In this document: positions 5,101 through 32,265 of the stretch, piece by piece
Position numbering within the stretch: position 1 is the stretch's first letter
Layout of the letters: the number at the start of each line of letters is the position of its first letter
Origin: Candidatus Heimdallarchaeota archaeon LC_2
Lineage (GTDB): Archaea; Asgardarchaeota; Heimdallarchaeia; Heimdallarchaeales; Kariarchaeaceae
NCBI GenBank assembly: GCA_001940725.1
Contig: MDVR01000060.1
Coordinates: 1-34,845, forward strand
Reading direction: 5' to 3'
DNA: 34,845 nt
Made by a program: the position numbers and the translations under genes
The notes under the pieces: model-generated
What the model saw: only the letters and a program-made list of their open reading frames with translations
Told to the model about the DNA's origin: nothing
The model's database searches: none

Positions 5101-6651
5101 GTGATATCAATTACTATATTTACCCGTCGAGGTGGTTCAATCGTTTTTCTTGGATTTATGTCAATAGCTATAGCAATTGGACTTGCAGGTTATCAATCAA
5201 TATCGATATTGGCAGACACATTTCTTGGAGGTTTACTTGATTCTGCTTCTGAAGGAGGTGGACTTGATTTTACAGATGCCTACCCTAGCAATGATAATCT
5301 AGGAGCTGAAGCCTTAGGTCAAATCCTTGGTACGACAGTTATTGAAACCTTAGTTTTAATGTTATTCAATGCAATAGTAACCATAACAAATTCATTAATC
5401 TTTTACTTTATGATTTTGGGAACTATGTTAATTTTTTCAGTAGTTGCAGGGTATCCCACTTTTGCTGCTGGTGCTGGTCCCAACTCAGTAAAACTTAAGA
5501 GAATACTTGGTAAACAGAAGGCGTTTGCTGGTGATTATCTCTTAGTAGAAGTCAAAGTTAAGAACAAATCAATTAATCCTATTCCGGTCATAGAAATCTA
5601 TGATGCATATCCCGAAGTATTCGAATTAATTTTAGGTGAAAATTTTATCACAACTCAATTAGGACCAAAACAAACCGTAAGTTATGCCTATATTGTACGA
5701 ATTCCAGTTCGAGGTCGATTTTTAATAGGACCCACTAAAATTATTATGCATGATAGACAGGGTTTCTTTTCTGATGAGGCAATCCTTGCAGAGCTAACTG
5801 ATATTTTAGTATATCCTTCATATGAAGATATAAAGAAATTACAAATGCTGGGTTCTAAAAGACAGTTAGGGAAACTATTTGGATCTCATAGAACAAAAAT
5901 CAAAGGAATGGGAACTGATTTTTTTGGAATCAGAGAGTACCAACCAGGTGACCCATTAAAATACGTACACTGGTCGTCAGTTGCTAAACAGGGTGCCACG
6001 GAAAATCCAACATTACTTGTAAGAGAATTTGAATCTGAACAAAACATTCGTGTACTTCTCCTCCTTGATGGTTCTGCATCTATGGGTGCAGGGTTACCTC
6101 GTAATACCAAATTGGAATTTGCTATTAGAAGTTGTGTTATGATGGCACACTTGGCGATGGAAAGTAAAGACACGATTGGTTTAGCAGTTGCTGGAGAGGA
6201 TGTTAGAACTTGGATGGAACCTACTGGATCCAAAACATTCTTATTCAGATTTTTAGAAGAATTAGCAAATGTAGAGCCAGAAGGACAAATGCGATGGGAA
6301 GAAACAGCTAATTTTATCGTGCCAAGATTAGGGAAAGCAAGTTATGTCATTATTATTTCAGATTTAGAAGGTAATACAGACGATTTTCTCGAAGCATTGA
6401 AAATTTTCAGATCACATAAACATAGAATATTTGTAATTTCCCCATTTGGTCCTTGGTTTGAAACCAAAACATGGGATTTATCACCAACGGACAGAATAAT
6501 TGGTGAAGCAATAGAAGAAGGACTGGTTTCACAGAGAAAAGAAGTTTTCAAAATGGTTACCAAATTTGATGCCGCAGCTATAAGCGTTGGTCCCGATGAT
6601 ATATTGGCAAATGTTATGGCAGAATTTCAAAAACTAAAACAAAGAGCATAA
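5101..6651 (+). CDS. DUF58 / von Willebrand factor A-like membrane protein
   Basis: The start is GTG at 5101, with an AGGTGA stretch around it. Two N-terminal hydrophobic segments (about residues 14-40 and 80-118) flank a Gly/Asp-rich loop, then a beta-rich cytoplasmic domain leads to the DUF58 hallmark EYQPGDPLKYVHWSSVAKQG (279-298). A vWA-like fold follows with a MIDAS-type DGSASMG (D323, S325, S327). DUF58 proteins normally pair with MoxR AAA+ ATPases to assemble or activate client proteins at the membrane. The next gene is a MoxR ATPase, as expected. The 516-aa length is longer than minimal DUF58 proteins because of the extra N-terminal membrane loop. Confidence 0.88.
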   Translation: MISITIFTRRGGSIVFLGFMSIAIAIGLAGYQSISILADTFLGGLLDSASEGGGLDFTDAYPSNDNLGAEALGQILGTTVIETLVLMLFNAIVTITNSLIFYFMILGTMLIFSVVAGYPTFAAGAGPNSVKLKRILGKQKAFAGDYLLVEVKVKNKSINPIPVIEIYDAYPEVFELILGENFITTQLGPKQTVSYAYIVRIPVRGRFLIGPTKIIMHDRQGFFSDEAILAELTDILVYPSYEDIKKLQMLGSKRQLGKLFGSHRTKIKGMGTDFFGIREYQPGDPLKYVHWSSVAKQGATENPTLLVREFESEQNIRVLLLLDGSASMGAGLPRNTKLEFAIRSCVMMAHLAMESKDTIGLAVAGEDVRTWMEPTGSKTFLFRFLEELANVEPEGQMRWEETANFIVPRLGKASYVIIISDLEGNTDDFLEALKIFRSHKHRIFVISPFGPWFETKTWDLSPTDRIIGEAIEEGLVSQRKEVFKMVTKFDAAAISVGPDDILANVMAEFQKLKQRA

Positions 6652-6814
6652 TCATTATCGAATCGGCTTATTCAAAGAATTCAGAAATCAGTAAGAACAT
6701 TTTGTCGATATTCTGCAAATAATAAGTAGAACTTTTACCTTTTTGGAGAAACTTTTAGATAAGTAATTGTCACAAATTCAATAAGTAGAAAACTAGATTA
6801 GTTGAGGATAAATT

Positions 6815-7849
6815 ATGTCGAAAGCACCTACGCCACCTGACGCAAAACCAGCAAAATCAGATAAAAGTACCCCAACTTCACAATCCACATCTAGTGGAAG
6901 AGAAAAAATCAATGCAAAAGATATTCAAAGAATTTGGAAAGAATGTCACAGCGAAATGCAGAAAGTTATCATCGGGAAAGCTGATGTACTTGAGGATATT
7001 ATGATTACTTTGCTTGCAGGAGGTCATGTATTATTAGAAGGAGTTCCAGGAATTGCAAAAACAGTGATAACAAAAGCTTTTGCGGATACAATTGGTTTGG
7101 TCTTCAATCGTCAGCAATTTACACCTGACGCACTTCCATCTGATGTATTGGGAACCAATATTTACGATCCAAAAACCGGATCATTTAAACTACGAAGAGG
7201 ACCAGTATTTTGTAATTTCCTGTTAGCAGATGAAATTAATCGATCTCCTCCAAAGACTCAAGCAGCAATGCTAGAATGTATGGCAGAGACCCAAGTTACT
7301 ATTGAAGGAGAATTGTATCCATTGGATCCACCTTTTATTGTTGTTGCAACTCAAAATCCTATTGAGCAGGAAGGTACTTATCCACTTCCAGAAGCTCAAG
7401 TAGATCGTTTTTCAATGAAACTCGTACTTGAGTTGCCTGACGCTCAAGAAGAAAAAGATATTATTCATTTGAAACATAGTGGTCACTTTAAGAAAATCAG
7501 ACCGGTCACAACTGCAGCAACTGTTAATAAAATGATTGACGTTGTCAAGAAAGATATTCATATGTCTGAAGATATTATTATTTATATAAGAGACATTGTT
7601 ATGAAAACCCGAACTGATCCAAGATTAATTCTTGGTGGTTCTCCACGTGCTTCTATTGCACTTCTTATGTCAGCCAAAGCATGGGCTGCAATGCAAGGCA
7701 GGAATTATGTCACACCTGATGATTTGAAGAGGATAGTAAAATTTACAATATCTCATAGATTACAATTGAAAGCAGAAGCAGAACTAGAAGGTACAACTGG
7801 TATGATTGTTGTTGATGACATTGTAAGACAAATCACGGTACCAGTTTAA
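6815..7849 (+). CDS. MoxR-family AAA+ ATPase
   Basis: A cytosolic AAA+ ATPase of the MoxR group, thought to act as a chaperone with DUF58/vWA partners. A low-complexity Pro/Ser/Lys N-terminal tail of ~30 residues precedes the ATPase core. Walker A is GVPGIAKT (76-83), Walker B LLADEINR (136-143), sensor 1 ATQNPIEQEGTYPLPEAQ (178-195) with the arginine-bearing VDRF next to it, and the GGSPRAS sensor 2 segment lies near residue 275. All catalytic residues look intact, and the length matches the family. A GAGG Shine-Dalgarno-like motif is about 8 nt before the ATG. It sits between the DUF58 gene and a multi-TM gene, as an operon. Confidence 0.93.
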   Translation: MSKAPTPPDAKPAKSDKSTPTSQSTSSGREKINAKDIQRIWKECHSEMQKVIIGKADVLEDIMITLLAGGHVLLEGVPGIAKTVITKAFADTIGLVFNRQQFTPDALPSDVLGTNIYDPKTGSFKLRRGPVFCNFLLADEINRSPPKTQAAMLECMAETQVTIEGELYPLDPPFIVVATQNPIEQEGTYPLPEAQVDRFSMKLVLELPDAQEEKDIIHLKHSGHFKKIRPVTTAATVNKMIDVVKKDIHMSEDIIIYIRDIVMKTRTDPRLILGGSPRASIALLMSAKAWAAMQGRNYVTPDDLKRIVKFTISHRLQLKAEAELEGTTGMIVVDDIVRQITVPV

Positions 7850-10219: not shown

Positions 10220-11080
10220 GTGGATTGGCAACCTTGGCAGCAGGAAATAGATAATTGTAAAGTAATAATAACTTATGATAAAAACCATCAATTATATCCG
10301 ATTTCAGATTGGTTACATCCAGGGTTAATTCCAATAGGAAATGGGGACTTCGATGAATTATACCAAGATCTCCCTAACTTAGAATGGTTTCTACGTCATC
10401 TTGGATGGTTAGGATTTTATAATGTGGATGTTACCTCCTCTGAAAGATTACGTGGTTTAGATCTTATAAATGAGACAATATCCAAACCGATGAATCTAAG
10501 GTTTCTTGTTGATGACTGGATCGATGAAATCATTAATATGAGTGAATCTGTTGAAAATATTATTCTTGTTTCTGGATTATATTTAACGAATTCAGATTTA
10601 CGTAAGGCAGTTCTTCATCACATCCAATCGGGCAACTCTGCGACTTTGCTAGCTGTTCGTGGATTACAATTTCAAGTGGGACTAGTTACATTTGACGAAG
10701 AAACTAATTTAATTTCTGACTTTCAAGAAAAACCAATTGATAAAACACAATTGGTAAATTCAAAAATATTAATTCTGAATTTGAAGAATGAATATTCCAA
10801 AGATTTATTGATAGAATTTCGTGAATATTTACATAAAATTTCAAATTTGAACAAACAACTGAATCAAAGTATAATTAACATTGATTACATTAATGAATTA
10901 ATTCAATTTCTTATAAAAAAGGATTTGCTAAGTACAATTGAATTGACAGGAGTTAAAGGTGAGCCATGGTTTTTAGATTTATCAAAAATAGAAACATGGA
11001 TTAAGCTTGACCCACAATTTTTTATTCAAAATTTTAAACACCTTTTTAATTGTGAGAATTTCATACTATCACCTAATTGA
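10220..11080 (+). CDS. Degenerate nucleotidyltransferase-like paralogue, probable pseudoenzyme
   Basis: It starts with GTG at 10220, with GAGGT about 9 nt upstream. The protein follows the order of the preceding nucleotidyltransferase but lacks its catalytic parts. KVIITYDKNHQLYPISDWL (14-32) lies where the neighbour has the GGxGxRL loop, with no glycine signature. LEWFLRHLGWLGFYNV matches LEYIIRHLAYYGVNKF. NIILVSGLYLTNSDLRKAV matches the DIL metal region. EPWFLDLSKIETWIKLD matches EWWIDLGNLYRYKSIND near the C-terminus. The shared layout to the end argues for homology rather than chance. Immediate adjacency suggests a regulatory or structural subunit of a heteromer, by analogy with GMPPA/GMPPB; this is inference. 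Confidence 0.6.
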   Translation: MDWQPWQQEIDNCKVIITYDKNHQLYPISDWLHPGLIPIGNGDFDELYQDLPNLEWFLRHLGWLGFYNVDVTSSERLRGLDLINETISKPMNLRFLVDDWIDEIINMSESVENIILVSGLYLTNSDLRKAVLHHIQSGNSATLLAVRGLQFQVGLVTFDEETNLISDFQEKPIDKTQLVNSKILILNLKNEYSKDLLIEFREYLHKISNLNKQLNQSIINIDYINELIQFLIKKDLLSTIELTGVKGEPWFLDLSKIETWIKLDPQFFIQNFKHLFNCENFILSPN

Positions 11081-11192
11081 CCACCTGAAAAATGATTTAA
11101 TTTCAATATCTTTGTAAAAGTTTCAAGTGTTTTTGTTCGGTTCAAGAGAAGCAATTTTATCAATGGATATAAAAAAGAAATAATGAAGACCT

Positions 11193-11969
11193 ATGAGCGA
11201 AATCCCAATGGAATATAAAGTAATGAAAAAGAAATTCTCTAAATCAGTACAGACTGCACTTAAAGAAGATCTAGTAGCAATCATTGTTTACGGTGGTGCT
11301 GCGTCAAAAAGAATTTTTTCCGGTGTATCGGATATCGATTTTTTCATTATTCTCAAATCCCTTGATAACTTGTCAAAACCATTATCTGAAACATATCAGG
11401 TTTTGAGTGAAGTTATGATGCAATACCTTGAAGACCCATTGTTTTCATCCATTTTAGATTATGATATTTTAGTAGAGGATCAGCTTCCTACAGCTGAATC
11501 TCTTAGAGGTTTTTCATCCGTGAGAGCGTTAGCATTATCAGAAGGAGAGCTACTTTATGGCGAAAACCCATTTAAGGATCTTAAAATTGATGAAACTGAA
11601 TTAAAATATGGTGCAAGAGTTATGGTACAGGACTATCTTGATAAATTGACCAGTCTTTTATTTATGCCGAATTTTGATGTTGTACCTGAAGATGGAGAAA
11701 AAGTTGAAGATGAGTCGCTGGAGGCAGAGAGAGAATTTCTAGCTGTTGATGCAATATTATCTGCAGGTCAAGCATATCAAATGGTTCAAAAGAAAGAATA
11801 TGTGAACATGCCTGATGTTGTACTATTTGGGGAAACTGACCCCATTGATGGAATTGATAATCCACTTTTACAAGATGCAGGGCTCCTTCGTCAAGGTGTC
11901 GATGTTAATGTAGATAATTTCTATAATCGAGCTATTGATTTTTGTGGTTCTATTCTTAAATTAATCTAA
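11193..11969 (+). CDS. Pol-beta superfamily nucleotidyltransferase-domain protein
   Basis: The N-terminal half carries the minimal nucleotidyltransferase signature: VYGGAASKRIFSGVSDIDFF at residues 32-51, with the helix-capping GG...S and the metal-binding pair D47/D49. The remaining ~190 residues include an acidic stretch (about 165-185, EDGEKVEDESLEAEREF) and helices suited to a four-helix substrate domain. A third metal-binding Asp cannot be assigned with confidence. Such proteins transfer nucleotides to small molecules, RNA or protein. No HEPN-domain gene is adjacent, so it does not look like a classical MNT antitoxin. It is co-directional within the sugar-activation cluster but its substrate is unknown. 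Confidence 0.7.
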   Translation: MSEIPMEYKVMKKKFSKSVQTALKEDLVAIIVYGGAASKRIFSGVSDIDFFIILKSLDNLSKPLSETYQVLSEVMMQYLEDPLFSSILDYDILVEDQLPTAESLRGFSSVRALALSEGELLYGENPFKDLKIDETELKYGARVMVQDYLDKLTSLLFMPNFDVVPEDGEKVEDESLEAEREFLAVDAILSAGQAYQMVQKKEYVNMPDVVLFGETDPIDGIDNPLLQDAGLLRQGVDVNVDNFYNRAIDFCGSILKLI

Positions 11970-12056: not shown

Positions 12057-13031
12057 GTGGAAACATACTTTCAAGGAAAGTCAATTGTTTTAACCGGTGG
12101 TTGTGGCTTCATTGGTTCTAACATGTTAGATCGTTTAATGACATTAAATGTAAATAAAATTACAGTAATCGATGACCTATCTGCAGGAACTACAACAAAT
12201 TACATTGATCGATATTCTGACACCAATAAAATTAGTTTTCATCAATTTGATATATCAGAGAAAACTCATTTTAATGAAATTCTGAAAATAACAAAAAATC
12301 ATGACATATTAATTCATCTAGCAGCACAACCAAGTGTTCCAATAAGCGTTTCAAAGCCTAAATTGGATTTTGATATCAATGTTATTGGTTCTTTCAACTT
12401 ATTAGAAATAGCAAGGCTGAATGATATTAATGAATTTATATTTGCTGCATCTGGAGGGACTGTTTACGGCAATGCGGAGAATTTTCCAACAAAAGAAAAT
12501 CACCAACTCAGACCAATATCGAATTATGGTGCAGCTAAGGCTGCATTTGAAATGTACCTAAGTAGTTATTCATCATTGTATGGGATTAAATGTACATCCC
12601 TTAGGTTTGGTAATGTATTTGGACCCCGTTCCCTTCATGGTGTTATGCATGATTTCTTCGTTAAGCTGAAAAATAATCCAAGAAAATTAGAAATCCTTGG
12701 GGATGGTAATCAAATAAAATCATATTTATATATTGACGATTGTATTGAAGGATTTCTATATGCAGTTACGAGGGATACTATTGGTTTTGAAACTTTTAAT
12801 ATGTCCGGTCATCCCCCAATATCAGTAAATATGATTGCAGAGCAAATTTCTAACAATTTAAAGTTAAAACCTAAATACAGCTACACAGGAGGGAAAACTG
12901 GTTGGAACGGGGACGTTGTTCGTGGTGAGCTTGATAGTTCAAAATTGAAAAAACTTGGATGGAATGAGCAAGTAAAATTTTCTGAAGGAGTAAAAAATTA
13001 TATAAATTGGCTATCTGAATATTACAATTAG
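12057..13031 (+). CDS. NAD-dependent nucleotide-sugar epimerase/dehydratase (extended SDR), second copy
   Basis: A second extended SDR in the window. The NAD motif GGCGFIG is at residues 14-20, the acidic ribose-binding IDDLSAG at 38-44, HLAAQPSVPISV near 87-98, ASGGTVYG at about 131-138, and the catalytic YGAAK gives Y157 and K161. The RFGNVFGP motif near residue 183 is also typical of GalE/RmlB/WbpP-like enzymes. It starts with GTG at 12057. It is not a recent duplicate of the epimerase at 539-1558: the shared residues are mainly family motifs. It lies downstream of the nucleotidyltransferase pair and so probably processes the NDP-sugar they make, which is context inference. Confidence 0.9.
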   Translation: METYFQGKSIVLTGGCGFIGSNMLDRLMTLNVNKITVIDDLSAGTTTNYIDRYSDTNKISFHQFDISEKTHFNEILKITKNHDILIHLAAQPSVPISVSKPKLDFDINVIGSFNLLEIARLNDINEFIFAASGGTVYGNAENFPTKENHQLRPISNYGAAKAAFEMYLSSYSSLYGIKCTSLRFGNVFGPRSLHGVMHDFFVKLKNNPRKLEILGDGNQIKSYLYIDDCIEGFLYAVTRDTIGFETFNMSGHPPISVNMIAEQISNNLKLKPKYSYTGGKTGWNGDVVRGELDSSKLKKLGWNEQVKFSEGVKNYINWLSEYYN

Positions 13032-13141
13032 TTAAAGAAATTAAAATCGAGATTTAACATTTACAATTATTCCAAATGTTAAATTTGTTGCCAATTAAAG
13101 AATGAGTTTATTAGCTGTAGTAATCTAGGTCAATATGTCAT

Positions 13142-13816
13142 ATGTCTCTCTCATTAGATGAAATTTTACCTGATTTAAAAGGTAAAACACTTGCACTTTT
13201 TGGTGATATATCAGGAAGAAGAAGTATTTTGATTAAACAGTTCATTCTTGACGGGTTACAAGGAGAAGGTACAAGCTGCATTGTGACTTTGACTGAATCT
13301 GCCGGAGATTTAATCGATGAACTTAGTAATTTTTCTTCAGATGCAAGTATTTTAGTAAATGATGCGATATTAAATGAAAGATTACAAATAATTGATATGT
13401 ATTCTTTTAGAGGAATAAAAGAGAATGAGACCATTCCAGGTGTCCATGTATTATCATCAGTAGATGAATTAACCCTTCTTTCAATTACTCTGAATAAAAT
13501 AACAAAAACTTATCCTAATTCTAGAATTATTATATGGCCATTTAGCTTATTAACAATTTATGCAAATCAAAAAGATATTGTAAATTTTACTCAAACCATA
13601 TCAGCTAGAATTGTTGACCGAAAACAATTAGGTCTCTTAATTGCAGACACTGGAGTGATGGATGAAAAAATAAAATCAATTTTAGAATCGCTCGTTGATA
13701 GCGTGATTGAAACGAGAAAAGAAGAGGTTGAAGGGGAGAGTCAAGAGACTATCAGAGTAAAATTCTTCAGAGGCGAAGAACTTGAAAGGTTTGATGTTTG
13801 GACCCCTCTTGTTTAA
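13142..13816 (+). CDS. KaiC/RecA-like ATPase-fold protein with a degenerate P-loop
   Basis: The protein has the layout of archaeal KaiC-like RecA-superfamily proteins. A strand LALF runs into GDISGRRS (21-28) at the P-loop position, followed by LIKQFILDGLQGEGTSCIVTLTES, which mirrors the QFLxxGL..GE.xLYVTLEES pattern. A second strand (RIIIWPFSLLTIY) takes the place of Walker B, and the C-terminal VIETRKEE...RVKFFRG resembles the terminal strands of that family. The P-loop lysine is replaced by arginine and the central glycine is missing, and no Walker B acidic pair is seen, so ATP hydrolysis is unlikely. It may be a regulatory or scaffold protein. It is 90 bp upstream of the CCDC47-like gene. 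Confidence 0.55.
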   Translation: MSLSLDEILPDLKGKTLALFGDISGRRSILIKQFILDGLQGEGTSCIVTLTESAGDLIDELSNFSSDASILVNDAILNERLQIIDMYSFRGIKENETIPGVHVLSSVDELTLLSITLNKITKTYPNSRIIIWPFSLLTIYANQKDIVNFTQTISARIVDRKQLGLLIADTGVMDEKIKSILESLVDSVIETRKEEVEGESQETIRVKFFRGEELERFDVWTPLV

Positions 13817-13906: not shown

Positions 13907-14746
13907 GTGAGTGTTTGGATTGATTTTGTAATAAGCTTATCCCCATTTTTTATTTTTACTGGTTTATGGGCTGTTGTTTATTTTCGGGGAAGTAAAGTCA
14001 ATAAAAAATTATTAGAATCATTTGAAAATGAAATTCAAGATGTACTGGGTACCCATGTAAATGAAATTAACAAAGTCAAAATCAGATCTGATGAATACGA
14101 ATTTAGATGTAGTACAAAAAATAAGAATATCAAAGTATTAACGCTTCATCTAAAATTAGTCAGTAGATCATTCATAATACAATGGATAATCAACCTATTT
14201 TTCAAAGAACAGGACCGATTATTTATTGGAAGCAAATTCGGGACAAATCAAGGAGATGAGAACCCAGTTTACCGATTTGATATTGTACCATATCGTAAAA
14301 AATCATTCATTAGCAAAAGATTTGATACTTTCATTGCAATGGACGATATTCCTACGATCAAAAAATCAGTTGATAAGAAGTACATGTTCAAATCTGAGAG
14401 CGTAGCCTATGTTGAACATTTTGTAGATAACGAAGAATTCATTGAGTTAATAGATAATATGGAACCAATAATGGAACACTTAACCATTCATAAATCTCAA
14501 GAAGATACTGATCCTCACCTTTCAATTACTTTTGAATTTTATGCAGTAAATGAAGATGACTATTCAGTATCAGAAATGCTACAATTGTTTTTCCTAACAG
14601 CTCAATTGCATATATCAAATCATGATACCATAAAGAAAAAACTTGCGAAAGGTAAAAAAGGTAAAAGTATGACCGCCCGAAGGGGCGCTGCCAGAAGCGT
14701 TGCAAGTAGAAAGAAGAAATCAAAGAAACGATCAAGAAAGAAATAA
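13907..14746 (+). CDS. Single-pass membrane protein with basic tail, CCDC47-like layout
   Basis: It starts with GTG at 13907, overlapping the end of a 6-codon ATG ORF at 13890. One N-terminal membrane segment (about 6-26) is followed by a ~215-residue soluble domain and an extremely Lys/Arg-rich C-terminus (243-279). Read against my memory of eukaryotic CCDC47 (the PAT-complex/multipass-translocon subunit), several elements fall in the same order: KKLLESF after the TM, a Cys-bearing strand (FRCSTKNKN) leading to LHLKLVSRSFIIQWIINLFF, a strand block ending RFDIVPYRKK, HFVDNEEFIELIDNMEPI and LSITFEFYAV before an amphipathic helix and basic tail. The acidic lumenal N-terminus of CCDC47 is absent. 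If correct, it would bind ribosomes at the translocon. Otherwise it is an unknown membrane protein. Confidence 0.45.
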   Translation: MSVWIDFVISLSPFFIFTGLWAVVYFRGSKVNKKLLESFENEIQDVLGTHVNEINKVKIRSDEYEFRCSTKNKNIKVLTLHLKLVSRSFIIQWIINLFFKEQDRLFIGSKFGTNQGDENPVYRFDIVPYRKKSFISKRFDTFIAMDDIPTIKKSVDKKYMFKSESVAYVEHFVDNEEFIELIDNMEPIMEHLTIHKSQEDTDPHLSITFEFYAVNEDDYSVSEMLQLFFLTAQLHISNHDTIKKKLAKGKKGKSMTARRGAARSVASRKKKSKKRSRKK

Positions 14747-14756
14747 TATGTTTCTA

Positions 14757-16286
14757 TTATTCTCTTAGAGATTCAAGATCCATAATAACTCGGGGTATCT
14801 CGTGTATTACATCAGACGCAAGTAATGAATTACCAAATTTTTTAGCTGAATATTCACCAGCCCTACCCATTATATTTGCAGCAATCGCAGTAGCAAAGAA
14901 AGAATCTTCAATAAAGCAATTTACAGCTCCAACTAATCCTGCTAACACATCACCAGTTCCACCAACCGTCATTCCAGAATGTCCAGTTTCGTTTAATATT
15001 GTTCTTTTTCCATTGGTTATAATATCGATTTTGCCCTTAAGTAAAATGACAATACCTAGACGAGTTGCTGTTGCTTCCAAAAATGTAATTAATTCTTGCG
15101 GGTTTTCTGGAATTTTTTCTTCTAACATCATCCTCAATTCAGCTCTATGCGGAGTAATTATTGCACCACTATCTTGAAGGAGATCTAGCCTACCTCTAAA
15201 AGCACGAATAGCATCTGCATCAAGCACTATTCGAATTTTTCCCTTGATATATTCGAATAATTCCAATACAAATTTAATACATTCTGGATGATTGGATAAC
15301 CCCATCCCCATTGTTACAACATCATGCCGGTGTACTAATAACTCACGAAATCGGTTAAAACCTTTGGTGGTTAATTTATCTCCTTTTACTTTCAATACAA
15401 TAAAATCTTCTGCATATCCAGCAACAATATCTCGGATGGTTTGAGGAACAGCAATTCGAAGAGTATCAACCCCTGCTCGCAATGCCGACATGCCGGATAA
15501 CACAGGTGCGCCAGTGAAACCATCACTTCCCCCAATAACGATTATTCTCCCGTTATCCCCTTTATGACTAGTAGATTTCCTAATTGGCCAATAATTAGTA
15601 AAATGACCAGCGTTCACATAAAAAGCGGATTTTTTTGAGATTCCAATAGGTGCAACCTTAATTATTCCTTTCTCATGAAATTGCTTTAATCCTGCTTTCG
15701 TATATTCCATAGTAACGATAGAATTAGGAGTATAATTATCAGAATGCCAATTTCCGGTATTACAATCTAAACCACTTGGGACATCCACACAACAGACATG
15801 TATATCAGATAAATTTGAGAATTCAGAAAGAATTTCTGAATATGGTGATCGCACTGTCTCATTTAAACCTACACCGATTAAGGCATCTACAATTAAATCA
15901 GCTTTTTTCATCAGATCAATTGTTTCTGTTAAATCGATATCTTGATCTAATTCCTTAATCATTAATTTATTTGATTTCAGATTTCTGAACGCTTTTTTAG
16001 CTTCTTTTGTTTTTGGTTTTTTTATCAATATTAACGTAGTTTTACAATTTTTAGCTAATATTCCAGCTGCGACAATCCCATCCCCTCCATTGTTTCCTGA
16101 ACCTGCGATTACAACAATATTTTCTAACTCTAATGATAATACATGTTCTGCAATTGCCTTACCTGCATTAAACATGAGATCATAAGCTTCGATACCACTT
16201 AGAAACTCATTTGTTTCTATTGCTAGTGATTCTTCTCTTGTAATATACTCAACTGGTGATAATGAAAGATCTTCAAGTTGCCACAA
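14757..16286 (-). CDS. nnr: Bifunctional NAD(P)H-hydrate epimerase / ADP-dependent (S)-NAD(P)H-hydrate dehydratase
   Basis: This repair enzyme restores NAD(P)H damaged by hydration. The N-terminal epimerase domain (NnrE/YjeF_N) begins with YITREESLAIE and carries AGSGNNGGDG (61-70), followed by DVPSGLD near residue 168. The C-terminal ADP/ATP-dependent dehydratase (NnrD, ribokinase-like) begins around HKGDNGRIIVIGGSDGFTGA, includes ITPHRAEL, and ends with the active-site GGTGDVLAGLVG (442-453). At 509 aa both domains are full length. The start is TTG at 16286, chosen because it gives the typical short lead-in and no in-frame ATG exists upstream. It is convergent with the CCDC47-like gene, with 10 bp between stops. 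Confidence 0.95.
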   Translation of the reverse strand: MWQLEDLSLSPVEYITREESLAIETNEFLSGIEAYDLMFNAGKAIAEHVLSLELENIVVIAGSGNNGGDGIVAAGILAKNCKTTLILIKKPKTKEAKKAFRNLKSNKLMIKELDQDIDLTETIDLMKKADLIVDALIGVGLNETVRSPYSEILSEFSNLSDIHVCCVDVPSGLDCNTGNWHSDNYTPNSIVTMEYTKAGLKQFHEKGIIKVAPIGISKKSAFYVNAGHFTNYWPIRKSTSHKGDNGRIIVIGGSDGFTGAPVLSGMSALRAGVDTLRIAVPQTIRDIVAGYAEDFIVLKVKGDKLTTKGFNRFRELLVHRHDVVTMGMGLSNHPECIKFVLELFEYIKGKIRIVLDADAIRAFRGRLDLLQDSGAIITPHRAELRMMLEEKIPENPQELITFLEATATRLGIVILLKGKIDIITNGKRTILNETGHSGMTVGGTGDVLAGLVGAVNCFIEDSFFATAIAANIMGRAGEYSAKKFGNSLLASDVIHEIPRVIMDLESLRE

Positions 16287-16419: not shown

Positions 16420-17007
16420 TTATATTTGTTTTGTCGAACCATATCTTTTACCCGCTTCCTCTTCATGATCCAACTCGTCGAATACTTTTGAAATTCTAGG
16501 AATTGATTCAATGACCCTATCTTGAAAGAGTGAGAATGTTACTTGATATTCCTTTACATCATCTTGGAAATCAGTTAATGAAACTTTTTTACTACCTTCA
16601 TTAATTGAAGTAAGTGATTCTGTTAGATGATTCAATTCTGTAAACATCCTTGAATGTTGTTTTTCCTGATTATGCATAATTTCAGATAATTTATCAACAA
16701 CATTAGTGGTTGAAAATTCAAGTCCACCAATATTTTGAACGATTTCATCCATCTCTCTATGTATTTGTCCTAGATTAAACAGGACACTTTCTATTTTACC
16801 AAAAATATCATTGACTCCTTCAATTCGTCCATTCTCTAATTTAGAACGATCTACATCCAGTACCATTGGTCGTAGTTCACTTTTGGTCAACATCGCTAAC
16901 TCGGAAACTAAATCATTATATTTTCCATGAGTGTATTTCATTTCAGATCGTAGTCTAGCAGCATTGCTGCCCAAACTATCATTCTTCCTTATACTTGTGC
17001 TTGTCAT
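16420..17007 (-). CDS. Hypothetical coiled-coil protein
   Basis: A 195-residue soluble, largely alpha-helical protein that I do not recognise. It has no signal peptide or membrane segment. Heptad-like stretches run over about residues 15-45, 70-130 (FGKIESVLFNLGQIHREMD, VDKLSEIMHNQEKQHSRMF) and 140-180, so oligomerisation through coiled coils is likely. The start ATG at 17007 is supported by a TATA-like TTTTTAAATAA about 17-27 nt upstream, which would give a nearly leaderless transcript. Three short palindromes lie just above that box and may be operator sites. It follows the nnr gene on the same strand, but the 133-bp gap suggests a separate transcript. Confidence 0.7.
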   Translation of the reverse strand: MTSTSIRKNDSLGSNAARLRSEMKYTHGKYNDLVSELAMLTKSELRPMVLDVDRSKLENGRIEGVNDIFGKIESVLFNLGQIHREMDEIVQNIGGLEFSTTNVVDKLSEIMHNQEKQHSRMFTELNHLTESLTSINEGSKKVSLTDFQDDVKEYQVTFSLFQDRVIESIPRISKVFDELDHEEEAGKRYGSTKQI

Positions 17008-17354: not shown

Positions 17355-17411
17355 TCTTATTGCTTGGTCTGTTGATAAAGAATAATTAATATTCGGAATA
17401 AAAAAACGACG
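17355..17411. repeat. Left arm of 57-bp perfect inverted repeat flanking tRNA copy 1
   Basis: Runs from TCTTATTGCTTGG to AACGACG. Its exact reverse complement occurs at 17483-17539, on the other side of the 74-nt tRNA. Because the acceptor-stem sequences continue the pairing with one G-U, the whole could fold as a stem of about 63 bp with the tRNA arms at its tip. The same left arm recurs at 17667-17723 and 17979-18035. Confidence 0.9.
17400..17406 (-). terminator. T7 run directly after tRNA-Lys copy 1
   Basis: On the minus strand the tRNA 3' end is followed by TCG and then seven T residues, a typical archaeal oligo-T termination signal. The equivalent runs after copies 2 and 3 are at 17712-17718 and 18024-18030. 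It lies inside the inverted-repeat arm, so the arm probably represents the natural trailer of the gene. Confidence 0.6.
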
Positions 17412-17483
17412 AGCTCGGAGGGATTTGAACCCACGGCCCACAGGTTAAAAGCCTGTTGCTCTTCCAAGCTGAGCTACGAGCCC
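17410..17483 (-). tRNA. trnK: tRNA-Lys(UUU), copy 1
   Basis: A 74-nt cloverleaf on the minus strand beginning GGGCTCGTAGCTCAG. The acceptor stem is GGGCTCG/CGAGCTC with one G-U pair, the D stem GCTC/GAGC, the anticodon stem ACAGG/CCTGT closing loop CTTTTAA with anticodon TTT (lysine), a 5-nt variable loop, and the T loop TTCAAAT on stem GTGGG/CCCTC. The T stem has a single T-T mismatch at 50-64. No CCA is encoded and no intron is present. Discriminator base G. Its 5' flank is an inverted copy of the trailer, so whether this copy has a promoter is doubtful. Confidence 0.93.
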
Positions 17484-17539
17484 GTCGTTTTTTTATTCCG
17501 AATATTAATTATTCTTTATCAACAGACCAAGCAATAAGA
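17483..17539. repeat. Right arm of 57-bp perfect inverted repeat
   Basis: CGTCGTTTTTTTATTCCG through CAATAAGA is the exact reverse complement of 17355-17411. The same right arm follows tRNA copy 2 at 17795-17851, but is missing after copy 3, where unrelated sequence begins at 18109. The arm therefore looks like a fold-back copy of the trailer side and not an original 5' flank. Confidence 0.9.
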
Positions 17540-17721
17540 AGAATGTTAATTATTGTAAAAATTTCGATGAATGCTGTGAATTGAGTATAATATTACGGTC
17601 CCCATACTAATTTTTAGATATATTATTACTATAATTATTATCAAAGAAAATTTCAAATTAAATTCCTCTTATTGCTTGGTCTGTTGATAAAGAATAATTA
17701 ATATTCGGAATAAAAAAACGA

Positions 17722-17795
17722 CGAGCTCGGAGGGATTTGAACCCACGGCCCACAGGTTAAAAGCCTGTTGCTCTTCCAAGCTGAGCTACGAGCCC
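17722..17795 (-). tRNA. trnK: tRNA-Lys(UUU), copy 2
   Basis: Identical to copy 1, 312 bp away, including the T-T mismatch in the T stem. Flanked on both sides by the inverted-repeat arms, so the 5' side again has trailer sequence in reverse orientation in place of an evident promoter. Confidence 0.93.
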
Positions 17796-18033
17796 GTCGT
17801 TTTTTTATTCCGAATATTAATTATTCTTTATCAACAGACCAAGCAATAAGAAGAATGTTAATTATTGTAAAAATTTCGATGAATGCTGTGAATTGAGTAT
17901 AATATTACGGTCCCCATACTAATTTTTAGATATATTATTACTATAATTATTATCAAAGAAAATTTCAAATTAAATTCCTCTTATTGCTTGGTCTGTTGAT
18001 AAAGAATAATTAATATTCGGAATAAAAAAACGA

Positions 18034-18107
18034 CGAGCTCGGAGGGATTTGAACCCACGGCCCACAGGTTAAAAGCCTGTTGCTCTTCCAAGCTGAGCTA
18101 CGAGCCC
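18034..18107 (-). tRNA. trnK: tRNA-Lys(UUU), copy 3 (likely the ancestral locus)
   Basis: Identical in sequence to copies 1 and 2. Only this copy has a unique 5' flank (18108 onward) with no inverted-repeat arm, and a TATA-like TTATTTTA on the minus strand about 55 nt upstream (around 18161-18168), which would allow a leader of roughly 30 nt. It is therefore the best candidate for the original, expressed gene. Confidence 0.93.
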
Positions 18108-18391
18108 GACACGATCAAAAGTCAATTGACAACTGAACATTTTTCCTATTCAAAAAACCTAAAATAACCTTTGTGATAATGTTCAAAGTAACATTAATTA
18201 TAAATGGTTTAAATTAATCTAATTATCAATGAAATGACACCATTATAATAAATAACCATGATTTGTAAAGATCGTCAAATTGTCAATGTTATTGATTAAT
18301 TCTTGATAATTGAGGCAAGAAGCTTTTAACAATTAATAATAATTTTCGAGATAGAAAAGTTCAAGTTTCTTGAAACAAAAGGTTAGAATCC

Positions 18392-19696
18392 ATGATTAAG
18401 ACTTTAATTATAATGACAACGTATGGGCAAATATTTTACTCCAAACAGGGTTTCTTTGGTGCTGATGTTGGTGAATCTGATATATCTCTGACTGCTGGAC
18501 TTATCAGTGCAATATATAGTATGACATCAGAAACTCAGGAACAGAAAATTACTGAACTTGAGCTTGAAGAAGATAGATCAGTGTTTCGAGAGATGCCTGG
18601 AGAAAAATTATTCATCATAACTGTTGACAAACGAATGGATACGAGTGATGCTGATGATTTACTAACAGAAATGGTTGATCGATTTGATCAAAAATATGGA
18701 GATATAGTCATGGATGGAATGATTCTGTCTGATTTTGAACCTATCGTTGACGAGATTGTTGAGAAAAAACTATGGTACAATACAACTGAAAAAAGAGCAT
18801 CTCTGAAGGATTATGCAGTTCTTTTTACATTATTACTAGGGGCTATTTTCTATCCCTACTGGTTATTAAATGGGCAGGAAAATTTAGTTGATCCGATAAA
18901 AAAGGCACTAGAGGATAATATTTTTCAGATGATTCTCAAATCGTTTATATTAGGACTATACACGATTGCCCCTATCTCTATCATAATTTACATAACTAGA
19001 AAATATTCCCATCTAAATGAACCCTTCAGGTTTTCAAAAGAGTTTCTTAAACGTCCCACAAGAGGTGGATATTCTGAGTTATTACCAAGCTGGTTCCTTG
19101 TTTTTCCGGTATTTTCAATTGTATTATTTGGTGCAGCTATCAGATTTGGAAGAGGTATACAATATGCCCTTTCTATTCAAGCCTTACCTGAAAAAGTCGA
19201 TAGTAAAATTGTCTTATCTGATGGTACTCAAGTTTTCTGGACTTTAGTATTTATTTACATCAGTTTGTATTTACTTACTTGGTTCTTATTCCTCCCAGCA
19301 ATAATTGGTTCTTTTACCCAACAATTGAACTGGAATTTTCTTAAATCTACATGGCTAATAATTGGTATTTCCTTAATTACACTTATACCAGCCCAAATCT
19401 TAGCGGGTGTGCATTATCAAGAAAGTATAGGTTACCATCCACAAAATGAGGAACTGGCGACAGAAGAAGGAAAAGAAATTGCATTTCTGTTTAAAGTAAC
19501 TCTTTTGATTAATCTATCCCTATTTGTATTTATATTTTTAGTAGGTATTGGAATCTCACAACTTATTAAGAAAAACAAAGGAAGATACCCTGTTGCTTTT
19601 GGTTTTGGATTGTTTATGACAATAGCCATCCAAAATGTATTATTTTACATTATATTTAATTCTGGATTGATATTTGAAGGCAAAACTTTTGGGTAA
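18392..19696 (+). CDS. Longin-like domain fused to a multi-pass membrane region
   Basis: The N-terminal ~120 residues read as a longin/roadblock-type domain: a first strand KTLIIMTTYGQIFYSK, a helix with ISLTAGLISAIYSM, strands ITELELEEDRSVFRE and KLFIITVDKRMD, then the helix ADDLLTEMVDRFDQKYG. A membrane region of about seven hydrophobic segments follows (residues ~144-162, 178-202, 231-248, 281-309, 318-336, 370-390, 404-425). Longin domains are typical of eukaryotic trafficking proteins and are abundant in Asgard archaea, where they meet small GTPases; a fusion to a polytopic membrane protein is unusual. AGGTT precedes the ATG by about 8 nt. The membrane part is not recognised. Confidence 0.6.
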   Translation: MIKTLIIMTTYGQIFYSKQGFFGADVGESDISLTAGLISAIYSMTSETQEQKITELELEEDRSVFREMPGEKLFIITVDKRMDTSDADDLLTEMVDRFDQKYGDIVMDGMILSDFEPIVDEIVEKKLWYNTTEKRASLKDYAVLFTLLLGAIFYPYWLLNGQENLVDPIKKALEDNIFQMILKSFILGLYTIAPISIIIYITRKYSHLNEPFRFSKEFLKRPTRGGYSELLPSWFLVFPVFSIVLFGAAIRFGRGIQYALSIQALPEKVDSKIVLSDGTQVFWTLVFIYISLYLLTWFLFLPAIIGSFTQQLNWNFLKSTWLIIGISLITLIPAQILAGVHYQESIGYHPQNEELATEEGKEIAFLFKVTLLINLSLFVFIFLVGIGISQLIKKNKGRYPVAFGFGLFMTIAIQNVLFYIIFNSGLIFEGKTFG

Positions 19697-25073: not shown

Positions 25074-25100
25074 GTAGCTATCCTATGATGCTACGATAGG
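25074..25100. repeat. Overlapping small hairpins at the 3' end of tnpB
   Basis: Three mutually exclusive inverted repeats overlap here: GTAGC (25074-25078)/GCTAC (25090-25094), CTATC (25078-25082)/GATAG (25095-25099), and CCTAT (25082-25086)/ATAGG (25096-25100). They straddle the tnpB stop codon. IS200/IS605-type elements carry subterminal hairpins at their right end and TnpB guide (omega) RNAs cover that region, so this may be the element's end or part of such an RNA. Boundaries were not determined. Confidence 0.35.
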
Positions 25101-26243
25101 GATAATGACAGGAGCCCCTCTCAGAAAACCTATAGCCTTCTGAGCTAGTTTATTCAATACATATTCATCATTAAAATATTTATCTTCAATATTACGAGAA
25201 GCATTAAGATCTGAATTAAGGTTAAAACCACAGGAAGTACACAAAAAATGAGCACCATTACGATTTTTGCGTGATATAAATGCACAATTATTACATCGTT
25301 GTGATGTATATGCAGGATCGACATAAATAATTTCGATATTTTTTTCCTTAGCTTTGTACTCTAGAAAAATTTGAAATTGATAAAAAGCCCAAGAATTCAG
25401 TTCTCTACTATGTCTTGATCTTTTGCGATACTTTGCAGTTTTCCTTATTTTGCTTAAATCTTCCAGTATTATTGTTGAGTTTAATTTCATATTTTGAATG
25501 ACTGTTTTTGTAATGCAATGGTTCTGATCCCTCTGAAACCGTCTCTCTCTACCAGCAATTTGTTTTAATCTTCTCTTTGCAGATGGAGTGCCTTTCTTCT
25601 GGAGTCCACGTTTAAGTCTAAAATATCGATTTTTTATTTCACGTAGACGTATACCATTGTAGAATTTATTTTGCGATGTTACTGCTATGTGCTTAATACC
25701 ACGATCAATACCAATAAATTTACCAGAATGTTTTCCCTCTACTTTAGAATACTTTCTGACAGCAAAATGTAGAAAATATCTATCACCTCTTTTCAATAAT
25801 TCAAAACTTCGAAATTCCCAATCAGTATATTGTTGATAACATTTCGGAAGAGAGTATTGAAGTGTCACACGTTTTTTAGTTGTGGAGAGAGTCACATATC
25901 TCGATTCATGAAATATGGTTGAACATCGGTAATCATATCGAATGGGGATTTTATGGGAGAAATTTACAAGTCGTTTTATTCTCTTTGCCTTCAAGCTCTT
26001 TATTACATCCACAGCCTTGTTTTTTGCATTAATAACAAGTTGGGAATTGAGTGAGGACTTTTCACGAACTGATTTGTAAATTGCATGATGAATTTTTATT
26101 CGATTTGAAGTATCATTGGTGTAAGCGTAGTTATATGCAGTTTGAGCCGCTTTGGAATATTCTTCAAAAGTTCTTCCCAGTTCTTTTTTGATTTGTTTAT
26201 CTGGATAAACCTGAACTCGCAAAGTTCTTGTAAGAATACTCAC
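25083..26243 (-). mobile_element. tnpB: TnpB (IS200/IS605 OrfB) RNA-guided nuclease, solo
   Basis: The split RuvC active site is intact: GIDRG with D180, LEDLSKIRK with E261 and NSDLNASRNI with D345. The zinc finger lies in between, C317-x2-C320 and C335-x2-C338, within the hallmark DPAYTSQRCNNC. The N-terminal half (VQVYPDKQIKKEL, AYNYAYTNDTS) matches the OrfB helix-turn-helix/wedge portion, and the length of 386 aa is full. TnpB is an omega-RNA-guided DNA endonuclease, ancestor of Cas12. No Y1 transposase (tnpA) is present nearby, so it would need TnpA in trans. The start is GTG at 26243. It separates the permease pair from the dehydrogenase gene. Confidence 0.93.
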
Positions 26244-30921: not shown

Positions 30922-32265
30922 TCATTTTAATCGTTTTCTAATTACGATTATTGGAGCGAATATTCCAATCCAAATTGAAATGAGAATAAAATCATCTCGA
31001 GAGATCCTTTCAGATTTATTATTGTCTGCACCTGTTAATTCGGTTGACTTAGTATTTGAATTCAAATCTGTATTAGTGGTTGAATTGGTACTACTCGATG
31101 AAGTTGAACTGGTACTACTTGATGAAGTCGAACTGGTACTACTTGATGAAGTCGAACTGGTACTACTTGATGAAGTTGAACTGGTACTACTTGATGAAGT
31201 CGAACTGGTACTACTTGATGAAGTTGAACTGGTACTACTTGATGAAGTTGAACTGGTACTACTTGATGAAGTCAAACTGGTACTACTAGTTGCGACTTCA
31301 CCTTCAGTACCAAAACTACCCCATTGTGAAAGATAGTTTCCTGTGCTATTAAATTTTTGGATTCTGTGATTATTCCAATCTGTAACATAAACATCCTCAT
31401 TTGAATCCGATACAATTCCACTTGGAAGGTTAAATTGACCATCACCTGTACCAAAATTACCCCATTGTCTTAGATAACCACCCGTATTATTGAATACTTG
31501 TATTCGATGATTCCCATTATCCACAACATAGATATTACCACTTACTCCAATATTGATACTACGAGGGCTAATAAATTGACCATTTCCAGAACCACTGGTT
31601 CCATATTTTAAAAGAAGGGTGCCATTTTGATCAAATTTTTGAATTCGCTGATTTATAGCTCCAGCTGTATACACATTTCCAGATGAATCCACTACAACAT
31701 CCATAATAGATTGAAATTGTCCATCACCTGTTCCAAAATCACCCCATTGTGTTAAATACGTCCCAGTATTATCGAAAACTTGTATTCTGTTATTTCCTTG
31801 ATCTGCAACATATAAACTCCCATTCACATTAATTGCAATTCCATAGGGATTATTGAATTCTCCATCACCAGTACCTAACCCAAAACCAATTTGCCTTATG
31901 AATATACCATTACTAGAAAATTTTTGAATCCTATTATTTCCTTGTTCTGAGACAAATATATCACCATTTACGTCTATTGCAATTCCGTAAGGTCGATCCA
32001 ATTGACCGTCCAAACTGCCACTCGTCCCAAATTGGAAAAGAAGTGTTCCATTTTGATCAAATTTTTGAATTCTATCATTTCCCCAGTCAGTTACATAAAT
32101 ATTTCCGCCTGAATCATTAGCCAGAGACATAGGAGTAGAGAATTCAATATTTAAACTTTCAATTGTAGAATTAATGGGGTTTATATTGCTATTTGATGTC
32201 TCTATTAACATTGAAATCAAAAGTAATAATACAAGCAAACGCAAAACATGTATTAATGATCTCAA
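30922..32265 (-). CDS. Secreted NHL-repeat protein with Ser/Thr-rich stalk and C-terminal membrane anchor
   Basis: The start is TTG at 32265, followed by a signal-peptide-like hydrophobic stretch (residues 5-20). Six NHL repeats, each with a NxRIQKF-type segment (around residues 63, 110, 158, 205, 252 and 299) and GTGDGQF-type loops, fill about 45-325 and would form a six-bladed beta-propeller. Residues ~327-400 are an almost pure Ser/Thr stalk of 8-residue repeats (SSSTSSTS), a natural O-glycosylation substrate. A C-terminal hydrophobic segment (~425-441, ILISIWIGIFAPIIVI) ends with RKRLK, giving a cell-surface, outward-facing propeller. It lies between the two GT39/PMT-like genes, which might glycosylate the stalk. 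Confidence 0.88.
   Translation of the reverse strand: MRSLIHVLRLLVLLLLISMLIETSNSNINPINSTIESLNIEFSTPMSLANDSGGNIYVTDWGNDRIQKFDQNGTLLFQFGTSGSLDGQLDRPYGIAIDVNGDIFVSEQGNNRIQKFSSNGIFIRQIGFGLGTGDGEFNNPYGIAINVNGSLYVADQGNNRIQVFDNTGTYLTQWGDFGTGDGQFQSIMDVVVDSSGNVYTAGAINQRIQKFDQNGTLLLKYGTSGSGNGQFISPRSINIGVSGNIYVVDNGNHRIQVFNNTGGYLRQWGNFGTGDGQFNLPSGIVSDSNEDVYVTDWNNHRIQKFNSTGNYLSQWGSFGTEGEVATSSTSLTSSSSTSSTSSSSTSSTSSSSTSSTSSSSTSSTSSSSTSSTSSSSTSSTSSSSTSSTSSSSTNSTTNTDLNSNTKSTELTGADNNKSERISRDDFILISIWIGIFAPIIVIRKRLK
31082..31292. repeat. 24-bp minisatellite encoding the Ser/Thr stalk
   Basis: About nine head-to-tail copies of a 24-bp unit reading GAAGTYGAACTGGTACTACT plus TGAT, differing mainly at one C/T position and in the edge copies. 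On the coding (minus) strand each unit encodes eight Ser/Thr residues. Because the period is a multiple of three, the array keeps the reading frame when copies are gained or lost, and it is also open on the other strand. Confidence 0.92.

Follow-up and report, generated by a model that had tools for sequence, protein, structure and literature searches.

The window analyzed here is the 34,845-nucleotide contig MDVR01000060.1 of Candidatus Heimdallarchaeota archaeon LC_2. It carries, at positions 13907 to 14746 of the forward strand, a gene that is almost certainly an archaeal homolog of CCDC47, a component of the PAT complex of the endoplasmic reticulum (ER) multipass translocon. A preliminary description of the window had raised an archaeal CCDC47 counterpart as a possibility, which is now supported by a Pfam match and a fold match. 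By analogy with the eukaryotic protein, our favored reading, to which we assign a probability of roughly 65%, is that the archaeal homolog acts as a ribosome- and SecY-side organizer of membrane protein insertion together with an EMC3-type insertase. A membrane-anchored Asgard protein that carries the sequence signature of CCDC47 and is predicted to share its shape suggests that part of the ER insertion machine may predate eukaryotes.

Sequence and structural evidence for homology to CCDC47

The gene is an open reading frame (ORF) with a GTG start that encodes 279 amino acids, with the following layout (pLDDT, predicted local distance difference test).

13907..14746, + strand: CCDC47-like gene (PF07946 match; fold match to CCDC47 chains)
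13919..13987, + strand: N-terminal transmembrane helix, approximately residues 5 to 27 (hydropathy; model helix 2 to 47)
13988..14647, + strand: alpha/beta domain, predicted cytosolic, approximately residues 28 to 247 (predicted model; conservation)
14633..14743, + strand: Lys/Arg tail, residues 243 to 279 (composition; pLDDT of <50 from residue 253)

PF07946 (CCDC47) was the sole Pfam-A family to exceed its cutoff for the window protein (E value of 8.8e-9; 35.4 bits versus a curated cutoff of 27.7), with residues 15 to 275 aligned to profile positions 9 to 286 of 326. The profile search proposed in the preliminary description thus returned the expected family. The isolated core (residues 30 to 240) retained 20.8 bits, which is under the cutoff. 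Support that does not involve the tail was similarly high in relatives, such as P0020 (37.9 bits, residues 14 to 195) and L048 (35.8 bits, residues 24 to 204). At an E value of ≤0.01, PF07946 was matched by 7 of 15 close members and by 24 of 34 diverse members of the family; one other family reached this level, in a single member. Several relatives scored under the curated PF07946 cutoff, L014 matched with an E value of only 0.17, and the Pfam search of family members returned no CCDC47 match for P0014, L008, L036, and L046. None of the seven reversed-sequence controls matched PF07946. Together with the Pfam and fold matches, these controls counter the earlier concern that the resemblance is a chance similarity of layout.

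Four family profiles were run against the sequences of the PDB: A1 (15 members), A4 (34 members), A7 (49 members), and A8 (51 rows, of which 44 come from the genomes of a single Asgard phylum set). The A8 profile retrieved mammalian (7tm3_4; E value of 0.013) and human (6w6l_7; E value of 0.024) CCDC47 chains, in alignments that start at the membrane helix and span chain residues 130 to 282 and 130 to 281, respectively. Two designed coiled-coil proteins also matched A8 (E values of 9.5e-5 and 0.02), their best stretches comprising only the helix and the part that follows it. Three columns of A8 are conserved: G28 (Gly in 51/51 rows), with which the alpha/beta domain starts, N32 (Asn in 38/51), and R87 (Arg in 50/51). 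When A8 is aligned to CCDC47, G28 and N32 (a G-x3-N motif) fall on G156 and N160 of the PDB chain and R87 falls on R227, with the chain positions counted by hand from the printed alignment. The A8 match is weak alone, but its register agrees with the structural alignment.

In fold searches with the predicted model of the window protein, the comparison suggested at the outset, CCDC47 chains were the best structural matches and stood clear of unrelated rows. The model consists of a helix (residues 2 to 47) and an alpha/beta domain (approximately residues 51 to 247), followed by a tail with a pLDDT of <50 (residues 253 to 279). A transmembrane helix and alpha/beta domain of the CCDC47 type were seen again in the divergent member P0035, whose model also contains a helix at the C-terminal region (residues 254 to 300). 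Hydropathy places the only hydrophobic stretch at the N terminus, as 19-residue spans with a mean hydropathy of ≥1.6 begin within residues 1 to 8 only. Basic residues directly follow the transmembrane helix; thus, under the positive-inside rule, the remainder of the protein is expected to lie in the cytosol. Residues 243 to 279 include 20 Lys/Arg residues among 37 and no Asp or Glu. The predicted layout of one N-terminal membrane helix, an alpha/beta domain of ∼215 residues, and a 37-residue basic tail therefore holds, and the five CCDC47-like segments occur in the order first described (residues 33 to 39, 80 to 99, 123 to 132, 171 to 188, and 205 to 214).

Distribution in Asgard archaea

The gene is genuine and conserved, as confirmed by its database relatives and kept gene order. 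Fourteen database proteins matched the window protein at an E value of ≤0.01, with identities of 49 to 99%; the two that carry an organism name are from Heimdallarchaeota (P0005) and Kariarchaeaceae (P0007). We take the kingdom Promethearchaeati to be the Asgard group; Kariarchaeaceae is placed in this archaeal kingdom by the NCBI taxonomy.

The family was then sought in 227 genomes of one Asgard phylum (that of genome G003; the source genome of the window is not among them) and in 14 control genomes that include archaea (four of them named) and Escherichia coli. Family matches were found in 46 genomes with the first profile, 78 with A4, and 79 with A8, so the count has levelled off. The A8 match was not found in 148 of the 227 genomes, the completeness of which is not stated. 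The PF07946 profile itself gave E values of ≤0.1 in 50/227 genomes, reached its cutoff in 7/227, and matched in none of the 14 controls. All 16 PF07946 rows at an E value of ≤0.001 fall on A8 loci, while some weaker rows do not. The last protein search returned 63 matches. An organism name is attached to 21 of these, and every one is of the Asgard type: Heimdallarchaeota, Heimdallarchaeaceae, Hodarchaeales, Hodarchaeota, and Hodarchaeum, with single matches from Thorarchaeota, Odinarchaeota, Promethearchaeota, and an Asgard group archaeon. One group, with names limited to Heimdallarchaeota, Heimdallarchaeaceae, and, once, Asgard group archaeon, possesses a charged C-terminal helix that resembles the latch region of CCDC47; the window protein has the basic tail instead.

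Conserved gene neighborhood

Synteny was examined over 60 loci with a 9-kb reach and single-linkage clustering (genomes G043, G178, and G227 contribute two loci each). Pfam scans of neighbors covered ten proteins plus the genes of the window, which represent part of the clusters. The recurring neighbors in the window are as follows.

11193..11969, + strand: nucleotidyltransferase-like protein, 258 amino acids, upstream; cluster 4, 14/60 loci (PF01909, E value of 0.0029, weak and below cutoff)
13142..13816, + strand: KaiC/RecA-like ATPase domain protein, 224 amino acids, upstream; cluster 2, 16/60 loci (PF06745, E value of 2e-10)
14757..16286, − strand: NAD(P)HX epimerase/dehydratase (Nnr), downstream and convergent; cluster 1, 24/60 loci (PF03853 and PF01256)
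16420..17007, − strand: coiled-coil-like protein, function unassigned, 195 amino acids; cluster 3, 15/60 loci (no family over cutoff)

The order nucleotidyltransferase-like, KaiC-like, CCDC47-like, and convergent Nnr is common to the window and to loci such as L035 and L037; in the window, an epimerase gene lies between the first two. The L035 and L037 proteins are just 21% and 18% identical to the window protein. Retention of gene order at this level of identity ties the divergent members together as orthologs.

Two further observations concern individual loci. At L043, a protein encoded near the CCDC47-like gene (10671-11507, − strand) narrowly exceeds the PCI-domain cutoff (score of 24.4 versus 22) and also weakly matches E3 UFM1-protein ligase (E value of 0.0022, below cutoff). 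Cluster 18, to which this PCI-like neighbor belongs, also occurs at L035, L037, L038, L040, and L094. In eukaryotes, UFMylation targets translocon-bound ribosomes. Separately, contig C96 of genome G167 carries both an EMC3/TMCO1 match (6463-6933, − strand) and a CCDC47-like gene (12403-13134, − strand).

Translocon partners in the same genomes

EMC3/TMCO1-type insertases of the Oxa1 family (PF01956) were detected in 214/227 genomes (212 over cutoff), in line with the earlier statement that TMCO1-type proteins have archaeal relatives, with the proviso that this profile cannot separate TMCO1 from EMC3. Their presence is not specific, because PF01956 was also matched in 3/14 controls. SecY was present in all three genomes tested. 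EMC6/OPTI-type proteins (PF07019, which we take to cover OPTI) were found in 69/227 genomes (52 over cutoff). Asterix (PF03669) exceeded its cutoff in none of the 227 genomes, although a short membrane protein could escape the profile. At an E value of ≤1, PF03669 matched in 119 genomes; these matches were regarded as noise because 4/14 controls, including E. coli, matched as well. PF09767, presumably the family of the BOS subunit TMEM147, likewise exceeded its cutoff in 0/227 genomes, with one match (1.7e-4) that contains internal stops.

Proposed role and alternative explanations

In the most likely mechanism, an N-out anchor would keep the domain at the cell membrane, behind SecY. Near the tunnel exit, the large ribosomal subunit may then be bound by the domain together with the Lys/Arg tail, the composition of which appears suited to rRNA. 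SecY would not be the only route for emerging membrane segments, which would be passed on to an EMC3/TMCO1-type insertase close by. In the charged-helix group of Heimdallarchaeota and Heimdallarchaeaceae, the helix could additionally serve as a latch that braces SecY closed.

Several observations weigh against this proposal. CCDC47 was not found among PDB sequences with the A1, A4, and A7 profiles, and the identity to CCDC47 in structural alignments is only 8 to 15%, as low as had been anticipated. The model of the window protein lacks the latch helices that CCDC47 directs toward the tunnel exit, as no long helix is formed by residues 253 to 279. The neighborhood comparison in other Asgard genomes, put forward at the start as an informative test, gave a divided result: the locus is conserved, yet a recurring translocon gene was not recognized among the scanned representatives, which do not cover all clusters. 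The conserved gene order thus does not point to translocation.

The main competing explanation is that the protein is a CCDC47 homolog by fold and descent with another job in Asgard archaea, e.g., as a scaffold for a membrane enzyme or for a lipid or surface-polysaccharide transporter, and that recruitment to the translocon occurred in eukaryotes only. TtfA serves a different membrane machine (MmpL3) in this manner. We consider it unlikely, albeit well ahead of the remaining alternatives. The best CCDC47 chain aligns to the window model over 236 residues, versus 159 for TtfA, and with a clearly higher score, yet the human CCDC47 entry 6w6l scores approximately level with TtfA (12.7 versus 11.9). 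CCDC47 is the only Pfam family that recurs among the 34 diverse members (DRY_EERY appears weakly in two of the 15-member set), and binding of rRNA would suit either the basic tail or the charged C-terminal helix.

The low structural identity and the failure of three of the four profiles against the PDB would also be expected of a convergent fold, in which an unrelated membrane-anchored domain matches Pfam by chance or composition. This is very improbable given the above-cutoff PF07946 match of the window protein, the 24 matching diverse members, the unmatched reversed controls, and the register shared between sequence and structure. Alternatively, Asgard archaea may have acquired CCDC47 late from a eukaryote rather than by vertical inheritance. 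Such a transfer would account for the patchy distribution (79/227 genomes) but is similarly remote, as identity to the window protein drops to 10% among members, several keep the same gene order at 18 to 21%, and the long N-terminal region of the eukaryotic protein is absent (≤72 residues, transmembrane helix included, precede the conserved Gly in the 51 A8 rows), all of which fits great age in archaea.

Building on the role as an insertion organizer, we tentatively suggest a broader scenario. The archaeal ancestor of eukaryotes may have run a simple multipass translocon composed of SecY, an EMC3/TMCO1-type insertase, and a CCDC47-like factor, with a CCDC47-type charged latch helix possibly already present in one Asgard line (Heimdallarchaeaceae). 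Eukaryotes would then have added Asterix and the BOS complex, and a core held in common with bacterial TtfA could reflect an older, general cytosolic organizer for membrane machines.

Other features of the window

Three tRNA-Lys(TTT) genes lie in tandem at 17408-18108 (− strand) with an even spacing of 312 bases, a tandem triplication. A 386-amino-acid ORF (25083-26243, − strand) encodes a protein that resembles the TnpB/IS605 OrfB type. The N terminus of a 434-amino-acid protein (18392-19696, + strand), for which no Pfam family over cutoff was found, seems to us similar to small Asgard longin/roadblock-type domains and is followed by membrane helices. As read from its sequence, a 447-amino-acid protein (30922-32265, − strand) contains repeated beta-propeller-like motifs, a long Ser/Thr repeat, and then a C-terminal hydrophobic stretch.

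Comparison with known systems

Automatic NCBI annotation already labels P0020, P0035, and P0046 as "DUF1682 domain-containing protein." A literature search for CCDC47, calumin, or DUF1682 with archaea, Asgard, or evolution found no report of an archaeal CCDC47; supplementary tables and most subscription papers and preprints were outside its scope, and an earlier listing is possible. PAT components have been stated in one paper to be lacking in prokaryotes. For CCDC47, one half of PAT, this absence is contradicted by an Asgard homolog in 79/227 genomes. The homolog makes it possible to test in archaea in what order the parts of the ER insertion machinery came together, and it offers a minimal CCDC47 for structural work.

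According to published accounts, the globular domain of eukaryotic CCDC47 contacts the large subunit, its C-terminal helices lie between the tunnel exit and Sec61 and keep the channel closed (PMC7505659, PMC12572126), and the protein steers the chain into the cavity behind Sec61 (PMC13261788). Compared with CCDC47 (calumin; PF07946, formerly DUF1682), the archaeal form lacks the long N-terminal lumenal part, resides in a cell membrane rather than the ER, and is found in genomes where the partner Asterix was not detected; the window protein carries a low-confidence basic tail in place of the latch helices. In the fungus C. thermophilum, CCDC47 (PDB 9i78 chain 4) acts with SND3 and TRAP (PMC12572126); chain 4 is probably CCDC47, since its residue range, from 76 onward, fits the range published there.

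TtfA of mycobacteria (PDB 6t84) has a lower fold score than the best CCDC47 chain and shows no Pfam link; its partner is the lipid transporter MmpL3 (PMC6593404). Asgard homologs of OST and TRAP subunits have been reported among eukaryotic signature proteins (PMC10307638). These are different proteins, and CCDC47 is unnamed in the accessible portion of that source, but the theme of ER translocon accessory parts is common to both, and the CCDC47 homolog now joins the OST and TRAP homologs known from Asgard archaea.
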